From contig KV918843.1 of NCBI GenBank assembly GCA_002049455.2, forward strand, positions 1 to 64,000: a stretch of DNA of 64,000 bases, read 5' to 3'. The notes beneath the pieces are model-generated. The model was given only the letters and a program-made list of their open reading frames with translations. It was not told the origin of the DNA and ran no database searches. Positions 5,509-62,030 of this stretch are shown here, piece by piece. How positions within the stretch are numbered: the stretch's first letter is position 1; each line of letters starts with the position of its first letter. Source of the DNA: Porphyra umbilicalis (Eukaryota; Rhodophyta; Bangiophyceae; Bangiales; Bangiaceae). Position numbers and translations under genes: made by a program.

Positions 5509-6294
5509 AGGGGGTGGCGACAAGAACAATGGCGGTGGCAGAGTGGCGCTGGTCGGGTTGGCAGGAGAGCGATGCGGGGTCGGCGCGACAGGCAGGTGGA
5601 CGGCCGAGCAGTGCGCCGCGGGAGAGCCGACGCGGAGCCCGTTGTATGCGCCCCAGCCGCCAATGCGGACTGGCACGGCAGCGTCCCCACGCGCCCCCTG
5701 CGCTCGGTTGATAGCGAGGCCAACGTAGTGGCGCGAGAGAGAGCGGCCGGGGGGTCGTGGCCACCAACCCACGCAGACATTGTTCCAGGTGGATCAAAAT
5801 CGGGGCGCCCAGCCGACAACACATCATAGGCTGGTGACGCAGGTCGACGTGGCATCGTCGCTGCAGCGCATGCGCATCGCGAGGCGCTGTAGCGTCAATG
5901 CAGGCCCAAGCAAGGCGGTCAGCCGTCGCGCACCCGTCCTACGATGACGGGGTGGAGACGCGGTGTGCAACAATGCGATTTCTCGGTGTGTTGCAGGGAT
6001 CTGGATACGAGACAGGGCGCAGTTGGCGCGCGGCAGGACCGGGTGGGCCCCCGCCAGATTTCGGGCCAACCCACAAGTTTCCAGCGCGTTGCATCCGCAA
6101 GCAACTCGACCGCTCTCGTCATGTCGTGTGGACGGCCGTCCCGTGCCGTACCCGTATCCCCCCATAGGATACGGCACGGAGCGCTCAGACCAGTGCCAGG
6201 CGAGACGGGTGCCGTCGTCCGAGTCGGCTTTGTCAGCCACAACGGACGGTCCTCGGAAATTGCGGCACGGACTAAAGTCTGTCTCACTCTATTA
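5509..6294. other. Intergenic upstream of the BCS1-like gene
   Basis: Contains the presumed 5' region of the minus-strand BCS1-like gene. No TATA-like element or other gene is evident. From about 6236 the sequence belongs to a short repeat also present in reverse at 12551-12626. Confidence 0.5.
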
Positions 6295-7034
6295 GAGCAT
6301 TGCCAACAACTCAGGCTATCGCTATCGGCTATTCCATTCTAGAACCAAGTCCGCGTCCTTAGACAGCCACATGTACGTCAGCGGTTGGCTGCTGTGCTGT
6401 CATGAGCCTAAGTACCTGCAGGTTTCCTTACACCAGGCCTTGTCTGGGCCCGATCAAGACGATATTTTCTGCCAGGACTTGATTCACTGCAGCGGCAGAT
6501 GACAACTGTGGTGAGCAGCCGTATCAACCATAACGAAGGCGCAGAGAACGCTCGTCGGCAGACGGACAAAGAAACAGGTCAAAATGTGCAGCGCTTGATG
6601 ACGACCACGCCTAGAAGGACGTCACTGTAGGACCATTGCCATGTACGACAGCTCATGCTGACATTCCCACCATCTCTGCCCAGAAGAAACTGGCAGTCAA
6701 TCTTGCAGACGTGGCGCACACGTTGCAGCCACGTGCTACTATTTGCTGTGAAACGGGTCGTTGATCCATCACATGGGCCAATCAGAGGCCCCTGTGAGAT
6801 AGCTTCGGCTATCCTAAAAGCTATTCCGACTCGAAATAGAAAAGCGATAGCCGCACAGCTATTCTTGGTCAGCGTCAGCCATAATCAAGTAGGTAGTTCG
6901 ATTTCCATGGCCCGAACAAAAAAAGGGCTTCTTCGTCTAAAAAGTGGTGTTACGTCGGACTTCATGTGCTTAATGGGACACGTTGTGCAACGTGGCTTGA
7001 ATATGGCGATAGCATCTCATTGTTAACAATGCTC
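6295..7034. mobile_element. PIF/Harbinger-like MITE, 740 bp, TSD TTA
   Basis: The ends form terminal inverted repeats: left GAGCATTGCCAACAA, right (reverse complement) GAGCATTGTTAACAA. They are flanked by TTA at 6292-6294 and 7035-7037. TTA duplications and GAGCAT...AACA termini are typical of Tourist/PIF-Harbinger MITEs. The subterminal DNA is rich in 'gctatc/gatagc' motifs. No transposase is encoded. The insertion is supported by an apparently empty site: the related repeat at 12551-12626 reads straight through the join. Confidence 0.8.
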
Positions 7035-30200: not shown

Positions 30201-32448
30201 GTATGAATCGGTGACAACGTCACAATACAGTGTGTGCTTTCGTACCAGCTCCAATGCCTGTGGTTGTACTTTTTGTGGGAAGCACGATGGTGTGAATGTG
30301 AGACCGGTCGGAGCGGTCCGCGGGAGGCCTGAGACGGAGCCTCGCCAGCCGACCAACCGGTCGCCCACCACGCCGAGTGTTGGGGCAGGGGCGGGGGGTG
30401 TCGAGCGACGGGGGGGTGGTCCGTCAGGGCGAAACACACCTAGTTAAGGGCGGACTTCTGGGTCGTGACAAGTTTTGACACGTGCGCTCAAAACAGCAGC
30501 CACGCTAAAAACTCCGATCCTCGTCGAACGTGAGAGGTGCTGCAACACCTCCCCACAACAGCTTGAGCGGCACTTCGCATGTGCGTACCCAGTCGAAATC
30601 GCGCCTCACCTGTATGGCAAAAAAGCAACAAACCAGCAGACAGTTCTTTCACACCCGTCAAGCCTACAAGATAGAGGAGCTCACGGAGAGCAATTCAACC
30701 CACTTCTTAACCCTTTTTTTCTCGCTTGTTTTCTCGCCACAGCCACCGGCGTTTTCCTGGGTTCGTACACGGGTGCTTGTGCGGCAGGAAGGAGCTCTAC
30801 GAGCACTCACATGCGTATTCCTGCGCAGTGCTACTGATCAGCACTGAGAATACTGACCAAGAACTACTCTGACATTGTTGTGTGGGGGGCGCAACTCGGT
30901 CAGCGCCGTCCCCGAAGAGTACGCACGAGGGGGGAGCGGTGTGGCAGCGGACGAAAACGGCTACCGAGACAAGGTGATTCCGACATGCGGCGAAAAGTGT
31001 GGCCTGAATGCGGATCGGGCACACGGCCAACAGGTCGAGTTCATTCGAAGGGCCTCCACTTCGACCATACAATCCCATGGTCGACTGAGACACGTCCCCG
31101 AGCTCCCAATAAGTGTGCAAACTACAGAAGACACGATATGCAAACCCTCACTTTTGACAGTCTGACCAATCAGAGCCCGAGAAAGCAAGAAGTCCGAAAA
31201 AGGGGCTCCTTAACTAGAGGTCTATTCCATGCATTTAGGCGCTTGAGGAAAGGGTTTTCACTGCTGTTCTAGACTTCTTTTAACCATGAGAAGTAAACAG
31301 AACTGGTCTCCGTGGCATGGGTACTCAAGGAAAAAAAGACTAGGCGCTCAAAGGATTTTGTAGCGATGAGATACACCTCGTTGTTTCTCTGCCCCTCCAG
31401 AATCGCGCCGTTTTCTTCGTCTCTGCCGATCCAGAACTGGCTCTGACCAATTTCTGATGCAAAACACGTATTGATCCGATCTGGCATTTCATGGAAATGC
31501 ACTTTCTCTCGGCCGGCTACGAGCATCACCTGCCCCCCACCACCACCGCCCATGTTGACCAACGGCCACACATGTCGTCAAAACTTCCCCGCAGCACCGA
31601 TAACACGCATTTTGTTGCCTAGCCACGTCGAGTTACCGCCTGCAGCGTCATCAGCGGGCCATTTATTCCACAAAAAGGCGTTCAAGACAATGGTGGGATG
31701 CAAGGAAAAACGTCTGTCTCTCAAGCCTATTGTCGTAACCGCCTGAAAGTGCGTCATAAAAAAGCTGATGAAGTAGGCTCCAGGATGCGTCCATGCGGAG
31801 CGTCAACGCTCGTTCCATTGCCGAGTTCTGTGCGCGCCAATATGAGTCGCGCTCATGCGCCTTAATGCGTGGAATCGACCTTTAGGTGTGGAAAGGCATG
31901 CATCACTACACTTTGAGAGCACCCTGTCCTAAAGCCCAGGGAACTGTCCTGAAGGCCAGGGAAAACGAAACATCGATCAAATGTACCAATGATTAACCGT
32001 ACATTTTGTCATACATTAATTGAAAAGTTACAATGTATCGAGTAGGTTTGCAGTCCGTCCACGCCATAGAAGCTGCAAACCCAACTCGAGACGGCACATC
32101 CGGCCACAAGACAGGGATCTGAGACACGTACTTCTCCATGCTGTCACTGGTCAGCGTAGCCACCCCTTGTGTGCGGAACGATTGGCAGGGGGGGTAATCA
32201 CAGTCCTGCTGCGCGGATCGCGGTTGCAGACACCGTCGTGCCATTTTGGGGCGACGCGAGCTCCCGAGTCATTGCCGCCGGCGAAGCCGCCGTCGATGCC
32301 ACCGTCACAGCTGCTGCCACCACCCCCGGCAGTGCGTCTGTCGACGCACCCCTTGTATCGCACTACACCGCCTCTCTGCCTTCCCCTCCTCCTCCTCCCC
32401 CCCCTTTCCGTCCCCTCGCCCCCTCCCTCCCCCCTGCCCTTCCCTTTG
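27227..32448. other. Long gene-poor stretch
   Basis: 27700-29900 is very GC-rich, with many overlapping Arg/Pro/Ala frames on both strands and no motif. 29950-32000 is lower in GC and holds no recognisable gene. At about 31898-31965 a fragment repeats the sequence next to copy B of R1 (13793-13838, 'catcactacactttgagagc'). 32100-32448 is the 5' flank of the C69 gene; just before its start it becomes pyrimidine-rich. Confidence 0.5.
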
Positions 32449-34649
32449 ATGGTCGTCATGGCCTCGTTGGGGCGTCCCCGCTGGGCGTGCGCCGCCGCGC
32501 TGGCGGCGGCTGCCACCACGGCCGCCGCGCTGGCAATGACTGCCACCGGTCACTGCACGACGATGATCGTGTCGGCCGGCGCGTCAGCTGACGGGTCGGT
32601 GCTGACGTCCTCGACGTCCGACTGCAAGGACTGTGACTTTCGGTTGGCTCGCGTCGGCGCGCGGACGTACACCCCCGCGGGCAAGAGCAATAAGCTGCGG
32701 CCCCGCCCCGTGTTTGAGGCCAAGTTTAATTTTCCGCACCTGGTTGCGGAGGGGCGCTCCCCGACGTGGGAGGCGGACAACCTGAAGGCCGAGGACCTGC
32801 CGCAGGTCGACACGTGGCTGCCGCGCACCAAGTCGATTGGGTCGCTGCCGCAGGTCAACGCCACGGCGGCCTTGTACGAGACGGGCTCGGGGTACGCGCT
32901 GCTGAATGAGCACCAGGTGGCCATGGGGGAAAGCTCCTGCCCGGCCAAGTTTGTCGCGTCGCCGGTGTCGGCAGGCGGCAAGGCGCTGCTGGACGTTTCC
33001 GAGTTGAGCCGCATCGGGCTGGAGCGGGCCCGCACCGCCCAAGAGGCCATCCGCCTCATGGGTGCCCTCGCGGAGAAGTATGGGTACTATGGCGCCGAGT
33101 GGGACGACGACGAGACCAAGTACGACGAGTCAGGTGAGGCGCTCATGGTCGGCGACACGTCCGAGGCGTGGGTCTTTCACATCCTCCCCGACGACACGGG
33201 CGCGTCGGCGGTGTGGGTGGCGCAGCGGGTGCCCGACGGGCACATGACGGCGGTTGCCAACAACTTTGTCATCCGCCACGTCAACGCGTCTGACACGGAT
33301 AACTTCCTCATGTCTGACTCGGTGCACGCGGTCGCCAAGCGGCTCGGCCTGTGGGACGGCAAGGGCCTCCTCGACTTTACCGACGTCTACGGTAAGCCCC
33401 GCCCGGCGGTGCACGGCTCCTACTCGACCCGCCGGGTGTGGCGGGTGTTTACCCGCGCCGACCCTGACCTGGTGCTGCCGTCGCATACGGACGCGTTGAT
33501 GAGCGACTATCCCTTTTCCGTGGCACCGGCCAAGAAGATGGACCTCGCCCGCATGGTCGCCTTCCAGCGTGACCACTACGAGGGCACCGAGTTTGACACG
33601 ACCGTCGGCTTGGCGGGGGGCCCGTTTGGGGACCCAGACCGCTACGACGCGGGGCCGGTCGGCAATATGACGTTGGAGCGGGCCATGTACGGGGAGTTCC
33701 CCCGCACAATCTCCCTCTTCCGCACGTCCTACTCGTACATTGCGCGGTCGACGTCGGCGCTGCCGTCGACAGTCGGCGCGATGCTCCTCTTTGCGCCGCA
33801 CGCGGCGGCGACGAGTGCGTACGTGCCGTTTTACCTCGCCAGCGAGGCTGTGCCGCCGGCGTACGCGACGGGCTCCCTCTTCCGCTACCGCGGGGACGTC
33901 GCCTACTGGGCGGTCGCCGCCGTGTGCAACTGGGTGCACAAGTACTACGTTCACGCCATTGGGGACGTGCGGGAGATGCAGGCGGTCCTCGAGGCCGACA
34001 TCCGCAACGGATCCCTGGCCGACTTTGAGGCGAACGCCGCCGCCCGCCTCGGCAAGGCCAAAAAGACCAAGGACGTGCGCGCCGTCACCGACGCCCTGAC
34101 CACCTACACCTCGTCCCGCGCGGCGGGGGTGATGGCCGCCTATGGCGCCGCCTTCCCCGCCCTCATCGCCAAGTTCCACGACGGCTTCATCCGCAGCGGC
34201 GAAACGGAAGCGGCCGTGACCATGACGACCATGTTTTACCCCGAGTGGTGGCTCAAGGCCGTCGGCTACTTTCGTGCGGGGGACATTGCCGCGGCGGAAG
34301 CCGCCGCCCGGGCAGCAGGGAAGGACCCGGCGGCAGCCGCCGCGGCGGCCGCCGCTGCCGACGATGCGGCCATGCCGCCGGTCGTGCTCGCGCCCGCGCC
34401 GGCGGGCTCGGGGCTGTCTGCCGACAATGGGACGACCGCGTCGCCGTCACCGGCGGTCGGCGGGCCGGGCGTGTATGGCGACGCCGTGTCGGACGGCAAG
34501 CCGTCGTCGGGCGGCGGCCTGTGGGGCGGCGGCATGCACATTGTGCTGTTTGTGGCGGGGCTCGTGTCGGGGTTGGGGGGGGGTTCGTGTTGGCCTGGTG
34601 GGTCGGCCGCCTGCAGCGCCGGGGCGGGTACCAGGAGATTGGGTCGTAG
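32449..34649 (+). CDS. Peptidase family C69 dipeptidase, membrane-anchored
   Basis: Family C69 enzymes are N-terminal-nucleophile cysteine dipeptidases. The hydrophobic leader (residues about 12-32) is followed by GHC, so Cys36 is the predicted nucleophile, exposed by processing. The adjacent TTMIVSAGASADGS matches the family signature, and the body (NEHQVAMGESSC, EAWVFHILP, VANNFVIRHV) continues the family pattern to about residue 600. A low-complexity Ala/Pro/Ser stalk then leads to a membrane segment. In the same frame the protein would run to 34674 with a Cys/Trp tail. Shifting frame at the nine-G run near 34576 instead gives FVLAWWVGRL and a short cytoplasmic tail ending YQEIGS at 34649, which is far more family-like. 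I take the G-run as a sequence error or slip. Start chosen at the first ATG before the leader. Likely in the lysosome/vacuole lumen or cell surface. Confidence 0.9.
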
Positions 34650-34905
34650 GCAGTGTTGGTGGTGTAGGTGGTAGGCAGTGGTCGTTGTATTTTCTGGACC
34701 CCAGGGCTCGCCACGCCGGCCACTCCGCCCGTCGCCCGAGCGCCACGCCAACCGAGCGACGCACAGCAAACCGTCCAGCGGGGCCCGCCAACGCAAAAAA
34801 ATGGCGGACATCGCTGCAGCGCGGGCAGGCGCGCGCAGAGCGAGGCGGCACCCCTTGGCAGAGACACACAGCCGCCGGCCGCCGCACGGGTGACACGCCC
34901 CCGCA

Positions 34906-44699: not shown

Positions 44700-46149
44700 A
44701 CGGGGCCCACCGCCGCGCCGCCGCCGGCGAGCGAGCGCCGCGGTGACCGCCACCCACGGCCGCCCGCACCCGCGGCCGCGCCCGTGCCCGCCGCAGCCAC
44801 GAGCTGTGGCTGCGGCGCTCACCACCAGACGCACCGTTGCCGCCGGGCGTCGGCCGCGGGGACCACCACCGACGGCCGGCGTCGTCCGTGACGTCGGCCG
44901 CGGCGGCGACGGGCGCACGTTGGCACGCCGCCGCGACGGGCGTCGGCACCGCCGCCGGCACGCGCACGGGCGGGGCGCCGCCCGTCCCCCGTGCGGCCCC
45001 CCCTCGGCGCCCGCTGCACGCCGCCGCCCGCCCGCCCGCCGAAAGTACTGCCCACGGCGGGCGGCAGCCGGCACAGCCGCCGCCGCTGGCCGCCAAAGGG
45101 TGGCGCCGCGGCCGCGGCGGCGGTCGACGCCGGCGACTGCCGGTCGGAAGCCACCGCTATGGGGCACAGTGGCCGGTGGCCGCCGGCGCCGCAGGCGCCG
45201 ACACCCCCGCGTGCCTCAGCCGACTGTTGAGAGTATGGTGGTGTGGTGGCGGTTTTTTTGTTTGTTTTTCTGTCTCTCTCCTCCCTGGCCTCAACGCCCA
45301 CTGCTTATCTACCTACCGGCAGTGCCGTGGTCGTCCATCTGGCCCTCGCCGGCGCGTGTGCCCGCCTGTTGCCCAGGCTGGCCCCAAACGCCCACACCCG
45401 ACGGCGCGCTCCGCGCGCCACGCGGCTCCGCCACGTGCCCCTCAGCGCCCGTTGCGCTGGCGCCCCCTCGAGCGCTCGTGCTCCCACGTAGCGCCACAGT
45501 GGCGGCAGCCGCCACGCGGCTCCGCCCCCACGACCCCCCGGTGCTGCGGCTCCCACGCAATCCACCGCCCACGGTCGAGTCGACCGGTCCAATCTGGACT
45601 CGGCCACAGGCAATTTCCCAACCCTGGGGAAATTGCTCCGCTCGGTTGGGCTACCGTAATCTCACTCCGACACCGACGGCAGCGCCCCCCCCCGACGCGC
45701 CCACGGCGCCGCGACCGGCGCGCAGCAAGCAGGCTGACCACCGCCACCTCTTGGAGACAGCCCCGGAGTAACCACCCTCGTTGGCACGCGCCGTCACCTA
45801 CGCAGGTCGCACCCTTTTCGCCACCGCCCTCGTCGGCGCCGCCCCGCCGCCAGCGCCATCATGGTTGGCCGCCGCAGACGCCGTCGCCTTGTCACTGTCA
45901 ACGTTGACAGCGGAATGGTGGCGGCGACGGGAGTCGTGCGGTGGCGGCGGGGACGGCGCGGCGACGGTGGCCGCGTGGTGGTGGTGGCGGCAGGCGAGGC
46001 GGCGGCGGGGTGCGGCAATGGCGAGCGCGCCGCGGGCGGCCGCGGCGGCGGCCGCCACCGCTGGCGGCGTCGCCCGCTCGCGCGGCGGCGCCGCTGCACC
46101 CATAAAGATAATTCCGCCCGCGGCGCCGTGCCTTTCCCATCGCGACCGG
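44621..46149. other. GC-rich flank, no firm gene
   Basis: Frames remain open by composition. A strong pyrimidine tract ending in CAG at about 45245-45320 looks like a splice acceptor or 3' region. A protein-like plus-strand stretch (RTLFATALVGAAPPPAPSWL onwards, about 45805-46100) may be a further exon, but I cannot link it with confidence. Confidence 0.35.
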
Positions 46150-47289
46150 AGACGAGGGCACCCATGCCGACCACGGCAACAGCAGGTTGCTGGTCAGGTT
46201 TGGAACGAGCATGGGCTCCTCGAGCACCATGCGCGTCTTGGTGTTTCCTTTGCCAACGTCCATGGAGACGTGGCCGTGCCTCTTGATGGGCACCTTATCG
46301 CCGTTGGCCAATGTGACCTCGGCCCCGCTTCCCGCCGTCCGTACGGAGAAGCCCGTATCCCTGGCGACCATGTGGCTGATTGCGTCAGAGTCTAGCACCC
46401 AAGTTGATAACTCGCGTGTGCTCCCGTGACCCGTGCTGCTCCCGTCATTGCCAGTAGAAGCGGTGTATGCCAGAGCGGCACCCGCGTGGGGCCCGCCGCC
46501 TTGGCCGCCTTCACGACCACCACCGCCGGGCTTGCACTTGCCCTTGGCCTCGTCCGCCTTCTGCTTATTGTAGTCTCGCTGCATGTGCCCCTTCTTGCTG
46601 CAGTAGAAGCACACGACCGACTTCTTGTAAGACGGCTTCTTCGGCGCTGCTGCCGCAAGCGCTTTTGACTTAACACTGCCAGAAGGCTTGGAAGCGCCGT
46701 CAGTAATGCTCAGCTGCTCGACTTGAAGCAGCTTAGCCGTCACGTCCGACATGACGAGCTTGCATTTCTTGTTCTCCAAGACCGCTCTGAGCATCCCGTA
46801 CTCTGCCGGGAGTCCTGACAGGACACGCAACGCACGCGTGTTGTCGTCCGCCGGGTTGCCGAGCATTGCGAGCTCGTCTCGGATCATCTTGGCGCGCGAC
46901 GCAAACTTGATGATGTTCTCGTCGCCGCCCTTCTTCAGGCTGCTCTGCTCGTCCATGAGCCGCAGCAGCTCTGTGTTGTCACGCGCCTCGAATATAACCT
47001 TGAGCGCGTCCTACGACTCTTTGGCCGTATCAACCGACGTGACCGTGTTGAGATGCACGGGCTGGACCGAGATCTGGATGGTCGCCAGCGCCGCCTCGTT
47101 CATGGCGTCCCACGCTTCGACCACCGGGCTGGAATTCTTGTCGTCGGACGAAAAAGCCGGGCGGTCCGTCACGACCGCCGCCCATAGCTTCTCCATCTTG
47201 AGTCTCGCACGCTGGTACGCCGCCCACACCTTGTAGTCGTCGTCCAGCTGCACAAACCGGCGGCCGCCAAAGCGGCCGGGGTCTGACAT
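46150..47289 (-). mobile_element. Ty1/copia retrotransposon fossil (gag, start of protease)
   Basis: A minus-strand remnant of a Ty1/copia LTR element. It shows the UBN2-type Gag region, a zinc-knuckle region and the beginning of the aspartic protease region, in the usual order. No integrase, reverse transcriptase, RNase H or LTR is visible in the window. The left end abuts GC-rich host-like DNA near 46150. The element is broken: it is truncated and its remaining coding part carries a small number of breaks. Gag is still easily readable, suggesting a moderately old rather than ancient copy. Confidence 0.85.
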
Positions 47290-52011: not shown

Positions 52012-55000
52012 TGACGGGTCTCTTCCGCGCGGCGCGGTCTTACCCGCGCGCGCTTAACAAGAACGCTGGCGGCGGTGTGCCCAAGCAGCGGCGGCAGATT
52101 GCCTCCGCTCGCCTTTGGTTCCATCTCGTCGTGATGGTTGATGCGCGGGCTGCCCGTCATGGCCATCTGCCCTCGTGCCGTGTACCTTTACCTTTGTCTT
52201 CTTTCCGTAGGAACGGTGCAACCGTACAACTAGCAGCTATGGGGTTGCTAGTCAAGCCTGCTGTGGAATTCAATGTCACGTATCTGGCGTCTTTCCCCCC
52301 GGCCTTCCTTCTGGTAACACGTGGGCTTGAAGAAAAAACCCGCCCTTATGACCCCGCACAGGCCGACTTCAGAACCCAATGTGGGTCCACATTGCCAGAA
52401 ATACCGTTTGTTTCCCACTCCCAAATAAGCTCCACTGCGCAGGCCACGCCGACCCAAGCGCCACACTGGTTCCCCCCCCCACCCCATACTGTTTCGTTGT
52501 CTCTGTTGCTCTCGGTGCCACGCCTGACGAGCCCGCTGTAGGTCTACCTCCCTCCTCGCGCCCCCGCCGAACGCTCTGTCGTCGGTTGGTCCTTGGTGCC
52601 ATGTGCTGCATCCACGCTGAGCTTTGACTTGTTGTAGGCATCCGTTTACTGCACCGCATAGGGTTGTGGCAGCATACCTTATTATCATGTCCAGCCGCAT
52701 GGTATGTTACGTGAAAAGGCGCTGGTTGAGTTCGAGGGAGATAGGTTTGTTGGTGATATGTGGACGTCGCTCGAGCTGCCAAAACATGTGACGCTGTCTG
52801 TGTGCAACGCGTGTGACACGAGCATCTGCTTCCTGTGTGTGGCATTCCATTCTCTTTTGCTTCATTGCACATGATGCGTTCCTGGCATAAGCAGTGGTCT
52901 TCGTTGTTTCTTTTCTCTCTCAGATATACGACAGGCTGCTCGGTGCATGCACCTTCACTCTTCCCTCACGGCTACGTGTCGCGTGCGTAGCGGTCACTTT
53001 CCTGTGCGGGCGTGTGGAATGTCGTTGCCCGAATTATGTGCGGTGTGGATGTACGACTTCCATGCGGTGTGGTAACACGTCGGCGACAGGGCCGGTGTGA
53101 GAGACAAAGACACAGATCGTCGGATCTGGTCGTGCACGAGTCATCAAGTTGGGACTCGTCACGCACTTAACCCCAACGTGCAGGGGCAACTTCGGTCACA
53201 TGACCTCAACTACTCCGTATTTGAAATATTCAGTTTCACCCGTATTTCACATCCGAAACTAGATCGCGAGCGATGTTCGATTTGCACCCAATATGAACCA
53301 GTTTCAACCAATCACGATAAACCGGTTGGGCAAACCTACATGGCGCTGGCAGAAGAAACGATCCCCGGCAGTGTGCGGTGGTTGCCTGGATGGCCTGTCC
53401 CCCTTTCTTTTTTACTGGGGACACACGTATTGCTGCGCATGACCGTGGCTCATTGTGGAGGCTGCTGCTCGACTCGTGGCGACAGACCAGATACTGCATC
53501 AAAAGAGCACATGGAGCCCCCCTCAGAAAGTGCTTAAGGTATGATGTCAGTGGACCCAGCGAGGGTGCGAGCCAAAGACGGCACGCAATTGGATTCTGGC
53601 CGGCGCTTCACGGATGTGCTACGTCGGTCTGGAGGCGCACGGAGGTAGCATAACTCTTCCAAGTGGGTCGAAACAGGCGGCGCGCGGCCCTCTGCAGCTG
53701 TAAAGCCAGAAAGCACTGGTCACTGTTTCTATTTGAGTTCCTGTGGACGAAGAGCATGTCTCGCTCAGGCCATTGCGTCACATCAGCGTCCACAGTATGC
53801 AAGTGTGCGCCACGACGTTTCAAGCGGGTCCCCACGGTCCCCCAGCCTCGCGATGATTCGCATGGCTGCGACGGAAACGCGTCAGATCTTCGATGCAGAG
53901 AGCCCAAGGAGCCATCAAAGAAGAGGCACCATGAACTCTGCGTACTATGAAGCATGGCCTTTTCGCACACCCCACGCTTCCCTGGCTCGCTACGGTTGGT
54001 TTCAGCCGTATATGTCAGGCTCACGATGTGCTGGAGGCCTCAGCAGAGCAACGAAGGCTTCCCACTACCCCTGCAATAAGAGCGCGTTACCGTAGGAAAC
54101 GTGCCCCAATCGTGATAACGCGCTGTGCCGTTGTGTTGTGTGATGGATTCATGTTCACTTTTGGCGATCTCGGAACGATTCAAGGGAGGCAGGGCACAAA
54201 GGCGAACATTCGAAGAATGCCCTTTGTTGAAGGCGTTTTCGCCATGATTGAAGCCGTTTCCCGCAGTTCTGACTGCACAGACGTTCACAGAGCGTGTGCT
54301 TCATCGACATGCACCGGTACCACCTATGTTTAGGGAAAGTTTGTTCTTGGCCGTTGAGGATGTCCGAAAGAATGGCACTTCGGTTGAAAGTCCGACAGGA
54401 GCCAGACCGGAAGCATCGTGGGGACCCAGGAAGACGACAGACCGGTTACCGGGGACTTGAAACCCCCACTTCTGACGCGAGAGTCCTCTCCTGGTGTTGG
54501 GCGCCCACGGTTGTTCCGACCGCCGTGGCTCGCCGCCGGGCGAGGAGGAGGAAGTTGCGGAGACCTATTGAACGCCTTCGTGGCAACGGCGCGTCTGGCC
54601 CCCGTAGAGCTGGTGGGGGGGGGCAGGTTCTGCCCCTCCACTGTTTACGCGAAGGCGCGCACCGCTTCGGTCATTGCGGCGACCGTGGCGCCGATGGTAG
54701 CGTCGCGCGTGGCGCTGCTTGCAGACGTGATTCCGGTTGCGCTGCTCGTACGCCGCGCGGCAGCGCCAGCGCCTCCGGCTTCCGCCCTTGATGCGGCCGG
54801 TGCGGGCGTAGCCATTGACGTTGTCGTGATGACGGTCATGGCGTGCCTGTGCAACGTCGCGAACGTGCTGGCGGCCGATGTCCCGCCGATGCCGCCGACC
54901 GCCACCGCCGTCGCTGCCGCGCTCGTCGACGCGGTGGTGGATGTGTCGGCAGCGCCGGCGGCGCCGGCCACCGCCGCCGACGTCGCGGCGCTCGTGGCTG

Positions 55001-56700
55001 CCCTACCACTGGCAATGGTGGCTCTGACGCCCGCCACCGCCAGCGCCGCGCGGTTGTGGGTGCTGCAGCGGCGGCTACCGCCCTCGCCCGCCGGCAGTGC
55101 CGGCAGCGGCGACCATGGGGCTAGGGCGCCCCACGATCGGCCCGCGGCGGCGGTGCGCGCGCGGCGATGAAATCGCCGCTGGCGAGCGCGCCGGCAGCCA
55201 CCGGGAAGACGGATGACAGCATAGAATGCATGGCACGGCCACTCGCCCGGGAAGAATCAAGAGGCAGCCAATCAGAATCCTCTATTGCTGAATTAGCAAT
55301 CTCCTGTGTCATGAAGCCGGGGCGCCAACTGGATTGCAACACGATAGAGGCTCTTGCGGCCTTGGTGGCCGCTTCACCTTCCCACTGCCTCATCTGATAC
55401 TGGATTTTGTGACCTGCTTCGAGGCCGGGCTGCCTGGATTGCTCGCGTAAGTCAATTGCTTTCAGCGCTGCTCACGACCATCGCTCCTAACGCGAAGATG
55501 ACACGGTCGTGGCCTTACTAGAGGGCAGCCACCACGCGGTGTGCCTCCACCCGCCAGCCCTCCACTACAGCAGACGCCGAGGCACCGACTGGTATGTCTG
55601 TGCCTGAAGCACGCAGCCAATTTGCTGTCACTGAAGAACCTCGGGCCTTCCGACGTCACACTCATCCGGTGATCATGTTTCTTTTTTGGGCAGGGACCCT
55701 CGAGCTCTCACGCCGTGGTTCACACACCAAGGCGTCTCCGCCACCCCCCCCCCCCCGATGATTTCTTGTTGTAAAATCTCCGAAAGCTGCACCTGCCCTC
55801 CCAATACTTCCCCCGAACGCCTCCGACGTCGTGCGCGCCGCCGCGGCCGTCACCCTCTGAATGCTCGCTGCGCATTCAGCCTGGTCAACTAGACCCGCTT
55901 ACGGTGGGCACACCCGCGATTGTCATGGCGCTCTCTGTGGGGCGTGCTGCGCGAAATGGCGCTGCTTCGGAAAGAGACCAGGCAGTGACGGCAGCGTCCG
56001 CGGGTGTGGTTGTGTCGGCCACGGTCGCCGCGCCATTTTTTCTTTTGACTGAGAAACGCATCTGGACGACGCGCATGGGGGATCTGAAGGCGCGGGCGAC
56101 GGCTGGTACCGTCGCCATAGGCTGTGTCTATATTGACCCGCACGGCCATCAGAGCGTACAGGTGGGTGGTGGAGGCTTGGAGAGCAAAGTGGCGACACCG
56201 TCGACTGAGACGGAGGCGGTCGGATTGTCGGCGCCAGCAATGGCATTTTGGGTCATAAGGTGCACCAGCAGTCTTCACAAGCGACAAAGGAAGAGACGCC
56301 GATAAGACTCAGTGTCTCATCTTTTTGGAGATGCCCTGCTGCGAAGGCCCCACGCTTGCGCGTGCAGCGCGGCTCTGCTTGTGGCCTTCCTCCCTCCCAC
56401 CGCCGCGGGTGCCACCGCCACCCGCGGTGGGAGGGCGGACAGCCCCCCCCTGACGCGGTCCACAAAAAGCAACTTCAGGCGCCGCCACAGTTCCGCAAAA
56501 CTCAACAGCCACGTCATGTATACTACCTCTGTGGGCGTACACGCGCCCGACATATCAACAATGGCCGCTTAAACCACGGCCTCCATTCTGCTAGCCGCTG
56601 TCACGACGAGGCGCCGCGCGGCCGCCTCCGACCAGCCGCCCGACCCGTCCATGACGCCGGCGGAGAACGCGGCCAAGCCGGCAGCGGCCACCGCAGCGGG
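52012..56700. other. Intergenic and degraded frames
   Basis: 52200-54400 is lower-GC DNA with no recognisable gene. At 54418-55170 (plus) and 54645-55037 (minus) both strands are open over Ala/Val/Thr-rich repeats. At 55885-56550 several short frames on both strands look partly protein-like but cannot be assigned. Confidence 0.4.
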
Positions 56701-57063
56701 CTACTCAGAAGAGCGGGGGGCAGGGCCGACGGCGCCGGCGTCGAGGCGCTCCGTGCCCGTTCCAACAGCAAAGATGTGCAGCAGGCGGAAGCGGTTGTCG
56801 ACAGTCCATGGGTGTGGTGGGGTGGTAAACGCGGCGGCCGCCGACGCCATCGTGCGCGCATCAATACCACCCACCGGTGGCTGCGGCGGCGAAGGTGACA
56901 GCTCCTCCACAAGCATGTTTTTGCGGAACGCTAAACCAAAGGCGAGCTGCAGCTCCACGTCGCGGATGGAGAGGAGGGAGATATACGCCGGCACGCAAAG
57001 GCGCCTTATTATCAACGCATTTACAGGCGCAATCTTCGTGGGCATGCCCGCGCAGAGCGTCAA
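56701..57063 (-). CDS. Unrecognised ORF, 120 aa
   Basis: Ordinary composition with hydrophobic beta/helix character (PVNALIIRRLCVPAYISLLS, then DVELQLAFGLAFRKNMLVEE, then RFRLLHIFAVGTG). It follows the minus-strand frame 57124-58008 at a distance of 60 bp and may belong to the same gene. No family is recognised. Confidence 0.38.
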   Translation of the reverse strand: MTLCAGMPTKIAPVNALIIRRLCVPAYISLLSIRDVELQLAFGLAFRKNMLVEELSPSPPQPPVGGIDARTMASAAAAFTTPPHPWTVDNRFRLLHIFAVGTGTERLDAGAVGPAPRSSE

Positions 57064-57123
57064 CTAGAGATCCATCCCCGGCGCCGCGGCGGTGACTGTT
57101 TTAAGGAGGCTCGTCATGTTGGC

Positions 57124-58008
57124 CTACTGTGCCGCCGTCCACGTCATGTCCCCACCATCGGCGTCGTCCGCATTTGTTGCCGACGGCGTGGCCGATACAG
57201 ACCATGGCGGCGACAACGGCCATGCGCTTGCCCACGAACGCCCAAACGTGCTGCTCTCCCCCGTGACGCCCATGCCAAAAATGGTTGAGTTGCCAAGGCT
57301 GTCTCCGCCCGCGAAACTCTGCGCCATGGCCCCCGCCTCGGCGCGGCCGACACGGTTGCGGCTCTGAGGCGCGTAGACGGAGCCCCAGAGGCGGCCAAGA
57401 AGCCACGACCGCCACTGCCGCTGCTCGACTCTGTCCGGCGGGTCGCTGCCGCCGCAGCGGCTGCAACCGGGAGCGCTGCCCCCTCGCGCCTGTGGCGCGA
57501 CGCTGTGACGGGGGCTCACACTCCAAGGGGCGCCGCTCGGTTTGCGGGGGAGGATAGCAGCGGCAAAGGCGGCCGAGTTTGCCTCGAGCCGCACCCCGTC
57601 ACCGTCCATCACCAATCTCAGGCAGCAAGCAAATGAAGCGATCCCGCCGAGTGTCTCTGACGCCCCCGAGCCGAGAGCGTCCGAGATGGCCGCGAAAGCG
57701 GCGGCAAGCCGTGAGCGCTCCGCATCGGTAGAGAACCGCCGGATCGCGGGGGAGACGTACCTAAGGATGGCCACCTCGGCGAGCTTCGCCCACAAGATAT
57801 GTGTGCCGAGCACCACAACGCCGTAGGGGAGACTGCTGTAATCTCCGCCGCCGTCAGAAGCGCCGCCAGACGTCGAGAAGGGGGGACCCGCCACCGCATT
57901 GCCACCCGCCTGCTTGGCGGCTGAGCCAGCGTCCCCCCCCCTGCTCCCCGCGGAGCCCTTGCCCTTGCGGCTCCAAGCGGCTTGGGAGATGGCGAACCCT
58001 CGCATCAT
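57124..58008 (-). CDS. Unrecognised ORF, 294 aa
   Basis: The longest frame of the minus-strand cluster. The first 200 residues look genuine: a Gly/Ala-rich start, then PYGVVVLGTHILWAKLAEVA, YVSPAIRRFSTDAERSRLAA and GIASFACCLRLVMDGDGVRL. The last third is less regular. Protein-like pieces also lie upstream at 58141-58332. No family is recognised; it may be a host gene with introns or slips, or part of an unknown mobile element. Confidence 0.4.
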   Translation of the reverse strand: MMRGFAISQAAWSRKGKGSAGSRGGDAGSAAKQAGGNAVAGPPFSTSGGASDGGGDYSSLPYGVVVLGTHILWAKLAEVAILRYVSPAIRRFSTDAERSRLAAAFAAISDALGSGASETLGGIASFACCLRLVMDGDGVRLEANSAAFAAAILPRKPSGAPWSVSPRHSVAPQARGGSAPGCSRCGGSDPPDRVEQRQWRSWLLGRLWGSVYAPQSRNRVGRAEAGAMAQSFAGGDSLGNSTIFGMGVTGESSTFGRSWASAWPLSPPWSVSATPSATNADDADGGDMTWTAAQ

Positions 58009-59069
58009 TTCCGTAACCTCACCCGCGTGCGCCGTGCAGCAGGCGTAGTAAAGGCGCGGCTTGCCGTCAAAAAGCCAACCGCCCGTGCGCCATAATCGGG
58101 TAACAGGAGAGCGACGTGCCGAAAAGACAGGCCGTCGTGACTAGGGAGGGGTCGTAGCGCGAATACTCTGACGGCGCGTCGCATGCGGTGACAGCGCCGC
58201 CGTGATCGTTGCGCGGACGGCCGGCGTCGGCGTCGGCGGGGCAGAGTACCCGTCCGACGTGATGCTGTCCGACCTCTCGGGCAACAGGGTGACGCAGTCG
58301 ATGCTGAGGAGGGGCGACAGAGTGTCCATCATGGACAGTCAAGGCGCGTCAGGTAGGGAGCTGAGGAGGGGAGGCGCGGACCGGCGGTCAACCACCGTGC
58401 GAGGGTGAGCCGGCGGAGCAAGGCACGTCAGTGATGCGGGCCCACAGCGGCGCCGCTCGCCCGTCCACAGCGGTACCGAGATGGGCGACTAGCTTGAAGC
58501 TGCACAGCACTCTGTCAAATCGTCTCTGTCGGGAAGTAATAATGGTTGATCAGAACCAAAGAATACGCGACAGCCAGATATGTAAGAAGCTCACTTTTCT
58601 TTCGAAACACAATGTATTCAGAGTCAGGTTGGCAACAACAATGATGTTTACAGATCATTGCGCACTTGCGAAACATTTGCGCTTCGCATGAAGCGCTCGG
58701 CGTGGACCATATATATGCCTGTACGAGATAGAAGTGTGCTTGACTGACGGCTTGTGGCGTACCAGGGCGGCAGCAGCATGGTCGATAGTTGACCTCCGTC
58801 AGGTTCTCGTACATGAGTCGGTGCACGTCACTGTGTACGTGCTCACACCGTGCAAGCTGGGTGTGTTGCACGCGGGCAAAACTCTTTCAATTTTCACGAA
58901 GGCCAGTGTGTCATTGGCCATAGTCGTACTCGCCGCTGCCTTCAGTGCTCTGCTGACTATGTCGGGCGGCGTGGCAGTCTCCCAGACTGAGAGGCCCCTG
59001 ACTGGCAATCACCAGCAACAAGAAAACCAAGGGCAGCGTGAATCATGGAGAGGAAAAATGGGCATCGCT
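58009..59069. other. Intergenic between two minus-strand frames
   Basis: 58141-58332 (minus) has protein-like composition and may be a 5' part of the ORF at 57124-58008. 58430-59069 is lower-GC with no gene supported. Confidence 0.4.
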
Positions 59070-62030
59070 CTAGATATACTCACGAAGCAAAGTCGTGTGG
59101 GTAGCATACACCCTGTGCCCGGCCGCGGTACAGACAGCCAAGTAGGCATGCACGCATCGCTTCTGGCACGAGAGCAGGTTGCTGGTACCCCTGTGTACAA
59201 GGTCAGAGCGTAAGAGCAAGCAAAAACCGACAGGAATGTGCACACGCTCCGGGGGTGGCAGCGCCACAGCTGCTGTCCCCTCCGGAGCCCCCCCAAAAGT
59301 GTGCGACCACACATCGACATATGTACCACTCTCAAACGCAATGTACAAAGCAAGCAATGCGCCAGAACCGCCATCTTCTATGTGTTGACCCATGTCGGCA
59401 TGTGCCAGCTGGGGCAGCGCACGAGGCATAGCGATAAGCAGATGAGGTGACACAAATGTGAAGTCACGCCCCAACGCCTCACGCGCGCACTCGGCGGCGA
59501 CAGACATGCGCCGGCGCATCTCCTTGGCAAATACCCGGTTGCCGGTGATCGGAACTTGGCGGCGGCGGCGGTCTTGCTTCCGCTTTGGGAGTGTCTCCAT
59601 CTCCTCGACGGACTGAGAATTGAAGATTGGCTGAGCCGTGCCTGCCTTGTGGTAGTAGCCACCTCGGCGCACGGCCGCCTCTCGATCCTTCGGCACGGGG
59701 ACCAACATCCAACCGCGCCCATCGCTTCCCAGCGCACTGGAAACTAGCTCCGCATCGTCGTCAGACGAAGATGAGCTCGACATCGGAGGAGTAGCACCGG
59801 CACCACCGCTCAACGCCGCCACCGCGGCCACGGCCAACACAGCGACAGTTGTAGCCCCATGAGAGGCGGTCGGCGGCACGGTCTCACCCGTCGCGGCGGC
59901 GGTCGACTTGGAGATCCTGGTCTGGTGCTCGGGTGGGGCCCGATCCGACGGGGCGGGCGCCGTCGGCTTGGCCGCCGCGGCGGCGGATGAATTCGTCGTC
60001 TTGCTTTGCCGCGGCCGCTCGGGCAACGCCGCGCACGACGGTGCAGGAAACGGTGTCTTGGCGCCTGCGGAGGCGGCCAACTTGGTTGTCTTGGTCTGGT
60101 GTTCGGCCAAGGCTCGATTCGACGGGGCGAGCGCCGTCGGCTTGGCCGCCGCGGTGGCCGGCGAAATTGTCTTCTCAGTTTGCCGCGGCCGCTCGGGCAA
60201 CGACGCGCGCGACGAGGCGGGCAACGGTGTCTTGGCACCCGCGGAGGCGGCCAATTCGGTGGTTCTGGTCCGGTGCTCGGGCGGGGCCCGATCCGACGGG
60301 GCGGGCGCCGTCGGCTTGGCCGCTGCAGCGGCGGACGGAATCGTCGTTTTGCTTTGCCGCGACCGCTTGGGCAATGCCCCGCGCGACGAGGCAGGCAACA
60401 GTGTCTTGGTGGCCGCGTAGGCGGCCGACTCGACGGTCTTGGTCTGGTGCCCGGGCAAGGCCCGACCCAGCGGGGCGGGCGCCGTCGGCTTGGCCGCCGC
60501 GGCGGCGGACGATTTCGTCATCTTGTTTGGCGGCGGCCGCGCAGGCGGCGCCGCGCGGAACGGGGCAAGCAACGGTGTATTGGCGGCCGCGGACGTGGCC
60601 GTCTCGGTCGGTTTGGCCTGCAGCTCGGGCGAAGCTCGGTCTGACGGGGCAGGTGCCGTCGGCTTGGCCGCCGCGGCGGCGGTTGAAATTGTCTTCTCGG
60701 TTTGCCGCGGCCGCTCGGGAAACGACGCGCGCGACGAGGTGGGCAACGGTGTCTCTGCGCCCGCGGAGGAGACCGAGTCGGTGGTTCTGGTCCGGTGCTC
60801 GGGCAGGGCCCGATCCGACGGGGCAAGCGCCGTCGGCTTTGCCGCCGCGGTGGCGGTGGAAATTGTCTTCTCGGTTTGCCGCGGCCGCGCGGGCAACGCC
60901 GCGCGCGACGGGGCAGGCAGCGGTGTCTTGGCGCCCGCGGAGGTGGCCGACTTGGTTGTCTTGGTCTGATGCTTGGTCAACGTCCGGTCCGACGGAGCGC
61001 GCGCCTTCGGCTTTGCCGCCGCGGCGGCGGACAAAGTTGTCATCTCGGTTTGCCGCGGCCGCTCGGGTAACACCGCGCGCGACGGGGTGGGCAACGTTGT
61101 CTTGGTGGCCGTGGAGGCGGCCGTCTTGGTTGTCGTGGTCTGGTGCTCGGGCTGGACCCGGTCCGATGAAGCGGGCCCCTTCATGTTGGCCACTGTGGCG
61201 CTTGGCGCCTCGTTGGTCTTGTCTCGGTTCAGTGGGGCAAGCCCCGCGGTCATGGCCACCAGTTGGGCGGCCTGCGTGACGTCTTCTTCTTGCTCCTCGA
61301 TACATGCGTTAAACGAGAGCCGCGCCCTTGGCGCAGCTCCCGGGTGGGTGGGCGTGACCAGCTCGTCGCACCCGCGACCCCGTCGGCTTGGGACCTGCGC
61401 TCCAGGCGCGATTCCCACTGCTGGCGCGGTTGACGGCGTGCGGGCGATCGCCGCCCGATGGGTCGTTGTCGTCAATAAATCATGTGGTGTTGACGCCGGG
61501 CAGGGGACGGCTCTTGCAGGGCGATGATGCCGCCCGTCGCCGTCCGTGCCGTACATGTGCATGCCATCCTTTTCCACCATTGGCGGCTCCTCTTGTGTTT
61601 GCAGCACCTCCTCCGACCGTCCACGGGCCTCCTCGGGCAGCACGGGTGACTCGTCCACGAGCGGTAGGCGACCAGTAAGGGAGCCACCGCGTCGGGAGCG
61701 CTTGGCGGGTCGTGCGCGGTTGGCCCCACCAGACCTCGGCCGCTTTCCAGACGGGTAGCATGCCGCGGATCCCGGGCTCCTCGTCGACCCGGACGCCGAC
61801 GTTGTCGACATACTCTTGTCGCCATCCTCATTGTGGAGGTCACGCCCGCCCCGCTTGCTGCGCCTCTTCGGGTTGCGCTTCCGATGGCTGCGGGAACGAC
61901 CCTTGCCGCGACCACACGGGCCAGACGAGGTCACCTTTCCGTTGCCATGGCTGCTCTCCGATCCCGCCCCCCCAACGGGAGGGGGTAGCATGCGATAGTG
62001 TTGGGCGGAGGGTGTGACGTGTGAAGGCAC
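59070..62030 (-). CDS. 986-aa repeat protein with Fe(II)/2OG oxygenase-like C-terminus
   Basis: Residues 1-120 are Arg/Ser-rich and basic, with several nuclear-localisation-like clusters (KRNPKRRSKRGG). About residues 287-693 are seven tandem 58-residue units built on PSDR..PEHQT...AKTPLPAPSR.ALPERPRQTEKT...AAAAAKPTA.A, plus a partial eighth. The spacing is exactly 174 nt every time. After an acidic Ser/Asp stretch, the last 220 residues look globular. HADM (about 877-880), LVHRGTSN (His about 946) and a downstream Arg (about 958) follow the HxD...H...R order of double-stranded beta-helix Fe(II)/2-oxoglutarate oxygenases. Target unknown; a nuclear role is inferred from the basic leader. GTGAGT right at the C-terminal codons (about 59083) could be a splice donor, so the true end may lie in another exon. 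Confidence 0.6.
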   Translation of the reverse strand: MPSHVTPSAQHYRMLPPPVGGAGSESSHGNGKVTSSGPCGRGKGRSRSHRKRNPKRRSKRGGRDLHNEDGDKSMSTTSASGSTRSPGSAACYPSGKRPRSGGANRARPAKRSRRGGSLTGRLPLVDESPVLPEEARGRSEEVLQTQEEPPMVEKDGMHMYGTDGDGRHHRPARAVPCPASTPHDLLTTTTHRAAIARTPSTAPAVGIAPGAQVPSRRGRGCDELVTPTHPGAAPRARLSFNACIEEQEEDVTQAAQLVAMTAGLAPLNRDKTNEAPSATVANMKGPASSDRVQPEHQTTTTKTAASTATKTTLPTPSRAVLPERPRQTEMTTLSAAAAAKPKARAPSDRTLTKHQTKTTKSATSAGAKTPLPAPSRAALPARPRQTEKTISTATAAAKPTALAPSDRALPEHRTRTTDSVSSAGAETPLPTSSRASFPERPRQTEKTISTAAAAAKPTAPAPSDRASPELQAKPTETATSAAANTPLLAPFRAAPPARPPPNKMTKSSAAAAAKPTAPAPLGRALPGHQTKTVESAAYAATKTLLPASSRGALPKRSRQSKTTIPSAAAAAKPTAPAPSDRAPPEHRTRTTELAASAGAKTPLPASSRASLPERPRQTEKTISPATAAAKPTALAPSNRALAEHQTKTTKLAASAGAKTPFPAPSCAALPERPRQSKTTNSSAAAAAKPTAPAPSDRAPPEHQTRISKSTAAATGETVPPTASHGATTVAVLAVAAVAALSGGAGATPPMSSSSSSDDDAELVSSALGSDGRGWMLVPVPKDREAAVRRGGYYHKAGTAQPIFNSQSVEEMETLPKRKQDRRRRQVPITGNRVFAKEMRRRMSVAAECAREALGRDFTFVSPHLLIAMPRALPQLAHADMGQHIEDGGSGALLALYIAFESGTYVDVWSHTFGGAPEGTAAVALPPPERVHIPVGFCLLLRSDLVHRGTSNLLSCQKRCVHAYLAVCTAAGHRVYATHTTLLREYI
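59955..61172 (-). repeat. Coding minisatellite, 174 bp x 7
   Basis: The landmark 'tttgccgcgg' (or a close variant) recurs at 60005, 60179, 60353, 60527, 60701, 60875 and 61049, always 174 bases apart, with substitutions but no length change between units. A partial eighth unit extends to about 59880. Confidence 0.95.

Follow-up and report, generated by a model that had tools for sequence, protein, structure and literature searches.

The window analysed here, the first 64,000 nucleotides of contig KV918843.1 of the red alga Porphyra umbilicalis, consists of GC-rich DNA with 35 open reading frames (ORFs) of at least 300 amino acids, one of which, 986 amino acids long, is our subject. From the letters alone it had been described as a protein with a basic leader, seven 58-amino-acid repeats and a globular end carrying the HxD...H...R order of an iron-dependent oxygenase, and all of these elements are present as that preliminary description has them (Table 1). 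Since a 174-bp unit that lacks a stop will usually be open in all its copies, the length of the ORF is by itself weak evidence; the finding stands above chance because the ORF has a family of paralogs and because of the pattern of selection within that family. The ORF belongs to a large and fast-evolving family of genes in this red-algal genome, and that family, found at 72 places, is the main addition to what had been described.

Table 1. Features of the 986-amino-acid ORF and of the duplicated block in which it lies, in positions of the window
Feature	Residues	Position	Strand	Remarks
Whole ORF, 986 amino acids	1-986	59070..62030	-	start GTG; first ATG is codon 14
Leader with basic stretches	1-281	61188..62030	-	
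Basic stretch RGKGRSRSHRKRNPKRRSKRGGRD	41-64	61839..61910	-	counterparts RRSxxGRRPW / RRSKRxG in other subfamilies
Nuclear-localisation-like stretch GKRPR...AKRSRR	95-114	61689..61748	-	counterparts in paralogs GKRVR, AKRLK, KKLK, GKRAK
Seven repeat units of 58 amino acids (174 bp)	282-687	59970..61187	-	
Eighth unit, decayed	688-745	59796..59969	-	
C-terminal PhyH-like (2-oxoglutarate-Fe(II) oxygenase-like) domain	771-986	59070..59720	-	about 216 residues
HxD motif, H877-A-D879	877-879	59394..59402	-	
Putative distal metal-site His, H946	946	59193..59195	-	
Candidate 2-oxoglutarate-binding Arg, R958	958	59157..59159	-	12 residues past the distal His
Block duplicated at contig C186		53338..64000	.	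84-91% identity by piece; window 54643-58813 missing there

The two basic stretches of the leader were located by eye, and residues 95-114 are labelled nuclear-localisation-like from the general pattern of such signals rather than from a prediction tool. Between the leader and the domain, Tandem Repeats Finder reported a period of 174 bp in 7.3 copies, with 78% matches and 0% indels. When anchored on AAAKPxAxAP these resolve into seven full units, whose pairwise DNA identity is 71-90%, and an eighth that fades into the next segment.

The genome searched was the 83.8-Mb assembly of 665 contigs, in which the window forms part of contig C83. With the window domain as the query we obtained 55 matches in its own genome, merging into 48 places, while a divergent relative used as the query gave 61 matches, merging into 55 places, and recovered the window gene at E 2e-4; merged by position, both queries together define 72 places on 64 contigs. 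Family loci, designated here by L numbers, were retrieved from the genome, twenty of them as stretches of about 8-10 kb and twelve as stretches of about 1 kb. The best paralog, whose protein is 92% identical, sits on contig C186 in a block that was duplicated with its surroundings, and the window gene was thus copied as part of a duplicated block of more than 10 kb. Members of other subfamilies share 23-54% identity with the window domain (alignment A3, comprising 21 members), and one subfamily has five copies with 94-98% identity over at least 5.7 kb. The layout of leader, linker and domain recurs in several subfamilies; the linker is presumably disordered, and the tandem repeats that it carries differ from one subfamily to another.

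The domain is the conserved part of these proteins. In A3, with columns numbered from domain residue 1 so that H107 is H877, the columns N34, D50, R53, P92, Q104, H107, R171, D173, H176 and G178 are invariant, and D109 and R188 are kept in at least 90% of the 21 members. The HxD, distal His and Arg that had been picked out beforehand therefore rank among the most conserved residues of the domain. We also inspected 35 loci (L018, L019, L021-L052 and the window) for the metal-site motif, and found both iron-site motifs in one frame in 29 of them. The first His and the distal His are present in 29/29 and the Asp in 25/29, and the window copy keeps H877, D879 and H946, that is, the 2-His-1-carboxylate pattern HxD...H. 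Internal stops occur in five of the 29 (L019, L024, L028, L031 and L036), and the remaining six loci (L018, L034, L035, L038, L043 and L052) are frame-split or degenerate. An Arg (or Lys) that binds 2-oxoglutarate (2OG) is expected some 10-12 residues after the distal His, and R958, at +12 from H946, has this spacing.

Ratios of nonsynonymous to synonymous substitution (dN/dS) were computed for ten paralog pairs with a Nei-Gojobori script. In the six full-length pairs, which are not independent because L025 occurs in three of them, dN/dS of the domain was 0.21, 0.10, 0.31, 0.16, 0.10 and 0.11, compared with 0.72, 0.78, 0.68, 0.55, 0.54 and 0.54 for the linker of the same pairs, the linker being compared partly out of frame in window/L021 and L025/L027. 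The pair L039/L040 dropped out at the motif filter, and three short or broken pairs were left unused (domain dN/dS 0.54, 0.89 and 0.35 on 115, 75 and 73 codons). Between the window and L021, the domain differs at the three codon positions by 0.047/0.032/0.111, the leader by 0.092/0.074/0.103 and the repeats by 0.150/0.170/0.187. Together, the dN/dS values and the codon-position pattern of the domain show clear purifying selection on it.

Outside this genome the matches of the domain are weak yet mostly to 2OG oxygenases, and for this reason the proposal of an oxygenase-like C-terminus holds at the level of the superfamily, with matches to PhyH-like and other Fe(II)/2OG enzymes, every one of them weak and none reaching the Pfam cut-off. 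Pfam PhyH (PF05721) was matched by three of the 21 members, the best being L041 (E 0.00043, 21.0 bits, over the distal His-Arg stretch). In profile searches of the PDB, with E up to 10 admitted, all ten sequences found with the A1 profile were kanamycin B dioxygenase (three) or verruculogen synthase (seven), with a best E of 0.061. Among the 17 sequences found with the A3 profile, 13 were AndA (two), an entry named '2OG-Fe(II) oxygenase' (one), kanamycin B dioxygenase (three) and verruculogen synthase (seven). The best match of that search was DhiD (E 0.027), which, like an entry named 'Oxidoreductase', aligns over the distal-His stretch; two HipA-domain chains do not fit an oxygenase. The AndA alignment matches the two HxD motifs to each other and the distal His to its counterpart. 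The single relative L041 had one PDB match, with an E of 1.1, to a 2OG-Fe(II) oxygenase. A profile-profile comparison with a two-sequence PhyH set (the PhyH gene of this genome and a single PDB sequence, PHYHD1) scored 20.1, against 18.0 for the best of the column-shuffled decoys listed (60 run), and again paired HxD with HxD and the distal H with H. We take AndA, kanamycin B dioxygenase, verruculogen synthase and PHYHD1 to belong with the PhyH-like oxygenases. The family resembles these Fe(II)/2OG enzymes in the HxD...H order, in the Arg 12 residues after the distal His and in a block, IPVGxCLxxRxDLVHRGxxN, that aligns with their distal-His stretch; it is unlike them in falling below the Pfam cut-off, in having a basic leader and a repeat linker joined to the domain and in its expansion to 72 places. 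PHROGs and NCBIfam gave scattered weak matches only. A viral or bacterial origin was also considered and rejected, as no relatives were found in viral contigs (searched with the window-group alignment and L041), genome contigs or phages, in scans that reach mainly close relatives.

A PhyH-like domain of the 2OG-oxygenase type is thus the best reading of these weak matches combined with the residue pattern, and we consider it somewhat better than an even bet (roughly 55%) that full members consist of a basic leader, a low-complexity linker and a C-terminal PhyH-like Fe(II)/2OG oxygenase domain, and are probably nuclear and active. Several results count against this. None of the 21 members reaches the Pfam PhyH cut-off of 22 bits, the window member has no Pfam PhyH match, and when the whole genome was searched for PhyH, only a gene on contig C257 (E 2e-36, above the cut-off and distinct from the family) and a weak match on contig C49 came up, with none of the 72 family places. 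The best PDB E-values, 0.061 and 0.027, are modest, and many of the sequences behind them are variants of a few enzymes; the divergent subfamily alone (A4) found DhiD first (E 0.065), followed, at E 0.29-0.9, by chains of a viral P1 capsid and a designed protein. The nominal hhalign probability of the profile-profile comparison was 1.2%, and a single-sequence AlphaFold2 model of the domain had a mean predicted local distance difference test score of 36, too low to be of use; a double-stranded beta-helix would be the expected fold, going by the weak sequence and profile evidence. Finally, the Asp is replaced in four of the 29 copies (by His in L026, L029 and L031, by Asn in L042), and the profile alignment shows the Arg displaced or replaced in several divergent rows, although A3 has it in at least 90% of members. 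The irregularities of frame and the loci in which no leader pattern was detected, both set out below, belong on the same side.

The leader's basic stretches (RRSxxGRRPW and KRxR-like) recur across subfamilies, which suggests a nuclear protein. If so, the leader would target the protein to the nucleus or nucleic acid, and the linker could plausibly serve as a flexible tether, for which length and composition would count for more than sequence. The domain would then hydroxylate something within reach of the tether, with Fe(II) held by H877, D879 and H946 and 2-oxoglutarate by R958. The cytosine-5 DNA methylase family PF00145 had no match in the 83.8-Mb assembly, in a search by exon that an intron-split gene or a missing region could escape; as a control, ten of the 14 control genomes (prokaryotes) match. 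Within that limit the result speaks against a TET-like role in oxidising 5-methylcytosine (5mC), and the substrate might rather be a chromatin protein or a nucleic acid modified other than by 5mC. ICU11 of Arabidopsis, a 2OG-type dioxygenase reportedly tied to Polycomb (PMC7368280), would be a parallel in function only, as a plant oxygenase at chromatin.

Should the domain be an active nuclear oxygenase, the genome would hold a large expansion of putative chromatin-facing oxygenases where no cytosine-5 methylase match was found; the usual guess at a substrate would then fail, and there must be some other mark or target. As a speculation that we hold to be doubtful, dozens of nuclear 2OG oxygenases, with disordered arms whose length is set by a subfamily-specific repeat, might modify chromatin proteins or a non-5mC nucleic-acid mark and diversify under conflict with mobile DNA, in a lineage where no C5-DNA methyltransferase gene was found. 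Whatever the activity, a conserved domain is present at 72 places in one genome while none of the 21 scanned members exceeds the Pfam PhyH cut-off, and the family is a natural experiment in which such a domain sits on a repeat tether that changes fast in sequence and largely keeps its frame.

How the family spread bears on the explanation that competes best with a nuclear oxygenase of the host, namely that the ORF belongs to a mobile element as an accessory or orphan gene, that the family travelled as cargo and that the oxygenase acts on the DNA or chromatin of the element or the host, as is suspected of TET/JBP proteins in fungal transposons. The family has many copies, several of them broken and some nearly identical although on different contigs, as would be expected of such cargo. 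There are also precedents: PMC12730594 has TET/JBP dioxygenases carried by diverse fungal DNA transposons, and PMC12477816 mentions giant EnSpm elements with accessory genes in red algae. The present family is like the former in being an expanded oxygenase family with an HxD(E)...H site in a genome rich in transposase matches, and like the latter in being multicopy, in a red alga and suspected of a DNA- or chromatin-facing role. Unlike the TET/JBP genes, however, it gave no Tet_JBP match in the 21 members scanned and showed no common transposon termini, and no C5-DNA methylase match was found in its genome. When the window and the 20 long loci were compared all against all, within 10-kb regions, the ends of homology vary from pair to pair.

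Proximity to transposases was tested genome-wide for the EnSpm-type (Transposase_21) and KDZ families. The EnSpm-type matches, at least 149 in number, lie within 20 kb of two of the 72 loci, where 5.1 were expected, so that the family differs from the giant EnSpm accessory genes in not being enriched near them; KDZ-family matches lie within 20 kb of three of the 72, with 1.2 expected, an excess that is not significant (P 0.11). Moreover, the 54 flanking ORFs that we picked from 217, around eight of the 20 long loci, gave two Pfam matches at E <=0.001, one each to DDE_3 and UvrD_C_2, and the window copy lies within a duplicated block of over 10 kb. Spread by segmental duplication fits best, an unrecognised large element may instead be involved, and we regard the cargo explanation as possible, if on the unlikely side. 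Membership of TET/JBP itself was rejected, since Pfam matches of the 21 members up to E 5 were to PhyH and three DUF families only.

Possible mobile DNA around these loci was as follows. The UvrD_C_2 match is an ORF with a helicase C-terminal domain at L026:8931-9893 (+) (E 5e-7), possibly part of a neighbouring mobile element; it is not counted with the family unit because it lies outside the stretch that L026 has in common with its paralogs. The DDE_3 match is a transposase-like superfamily endonuclease ORF at L037:7887-9038 (+) (E 4e-12). Upstream of the gene in L039, at about 6196-6827, there is a repeat about 630 bp long whose inverted ends measure about 37 bp, present in more than 30 copies at 92-98% identity genome-wide, which resembles a recent miniature inverted-repeat transposable element. 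In the window, a dispersed repeat with about 40 further matches, mostly at 74-88% identity, runs from 52500, where the query started, and breaks off abruptly near 53338, at the start of the duplicated block.

A second explanation holds that the 986-amino-acid frame is not one protein, the domain being a gene or exon of its own and the repeats a GC-rich minisatellite that is open by chance. Other frames are indeed open over the repeats, much of which is also covered by ORFs of 448 and 376 amino acids. Differences among the seven units are nearly flat by codon position (0.201, 0.207 and 0.236), with a dN/dS of 0.74 in frame and of 0.80-1.04 in the five other frames, and the repeats are close to neutral at the codon level. 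In L021 and L030, furthermore, the leader and the domain lie in different frames; in L021, the closest paralog, a 1-base deletion between repeats and domain is responsible, and the leader frame, of 832 amino acids, misses the domain.

What argues for a single protein is the distribution of indels and the sharing of a frame by leader and domain. Between the window and L021 the leader has 0 indels in 845 aligned bases, and leader plus repeats have 252 substitutions and 0 frame-changing indels, the sole indel there being exactly one 174-bp unit. The 5' flank, which holds several simple-repeat tracts, has nine frame-changing indels to 106 substitutions (P 2e-5 for the contrast). For the whole ORF against all flanks, frame-changing indels to substitutions stand at 1:326 versus 13:311 (P 0.0008), whereas the two smaller flanks taken by themselves give no significant contrast (1:285 versus 4:205, P 0.17). 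The earlier argument that the repeats, having diverged without changing length, are selected for their frame consequently finds some support in the depletion of frame-changing indels but none in codon-by-codon selection.

Leaders were searched for with a hand-made pattern, stray matches within domains or in other frames being set aside by eye and the window leader being taken directly. Among the 13 leader-bearing copies, 11 have the leader in one frame with the domain or its first part (P 2e-4, tested at one third with relatedness ignored). The frame is unbroken in eight, from four subfamilies (the window, L022, L023, L025, L026, L029, L039 and L040; P 0.035 for 8/13); it breaks inside the domain in L031 and L035, and L038, of a fifth subfamily, has a stop just ahead of the domain. 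L028 was left uncounted, as its single leader match is in another frame and outside the stretch common with L022; counting it would give 11/14 (P 7e-4) for a shared frame and 8/14 (P 0.058) for an unbroken one. The leader pattern was not detected in L032, L033 and L036 of subfamily C, nor in L037, L024, L027 and L034. On balance we find it unlikely that the frame is a composite.

Still less probable, in our view, is a host family of PhyH-type small-molecule oxygenases of secondary metabolism to which leader and repeats would be chance low-complexity additions. AndA, kanamycin B dioxygenase and verruculogen synthase, all of them small-molecule enzymes, are indeed among the nearest named PDB matches, but the basic leader and long linker recur in frame in several subfamilies, and frame-changing indels are depleted in leader and repeats relative to the 5' flank. 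We also doubt that the domain has lost catalysis and persists as a binding module with an oxygenase fold, for although HxD is lost in four of the 29 copies whose motifs are otherwise complete, three of them in one HxH group, the other 25, including the window, keep H, D and H. In that group (L026, L029 and L031) the metal-site HxD has become HxH while the rest of the domain is conserved, and domain dN/dS of the pair L026/L029 is 0.31.

No description of the family was found in the literature titles and abstract openings listed, a coverage from which subscription papers are mostly absent, nor do passages of PMC8752119 and PMC10538959 mention it. Elsewhere in the genome, the phycobilisome linker PF00427 is matched at 12 places, of which contig C665 has four and seven other contigs together have eight, as fits a red alga. 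Among the neighbours of the ORF in the window are a piece of a Copia-type retrotransposon at 45898-46956 (-), with Pol_BBD at E 5e-10 and Retrotran_gag_2 at E 5e-6 (just under its cut-off), and a gene of Peptidase family C69 at 32020-34674 (+), with E 1.5e-38.

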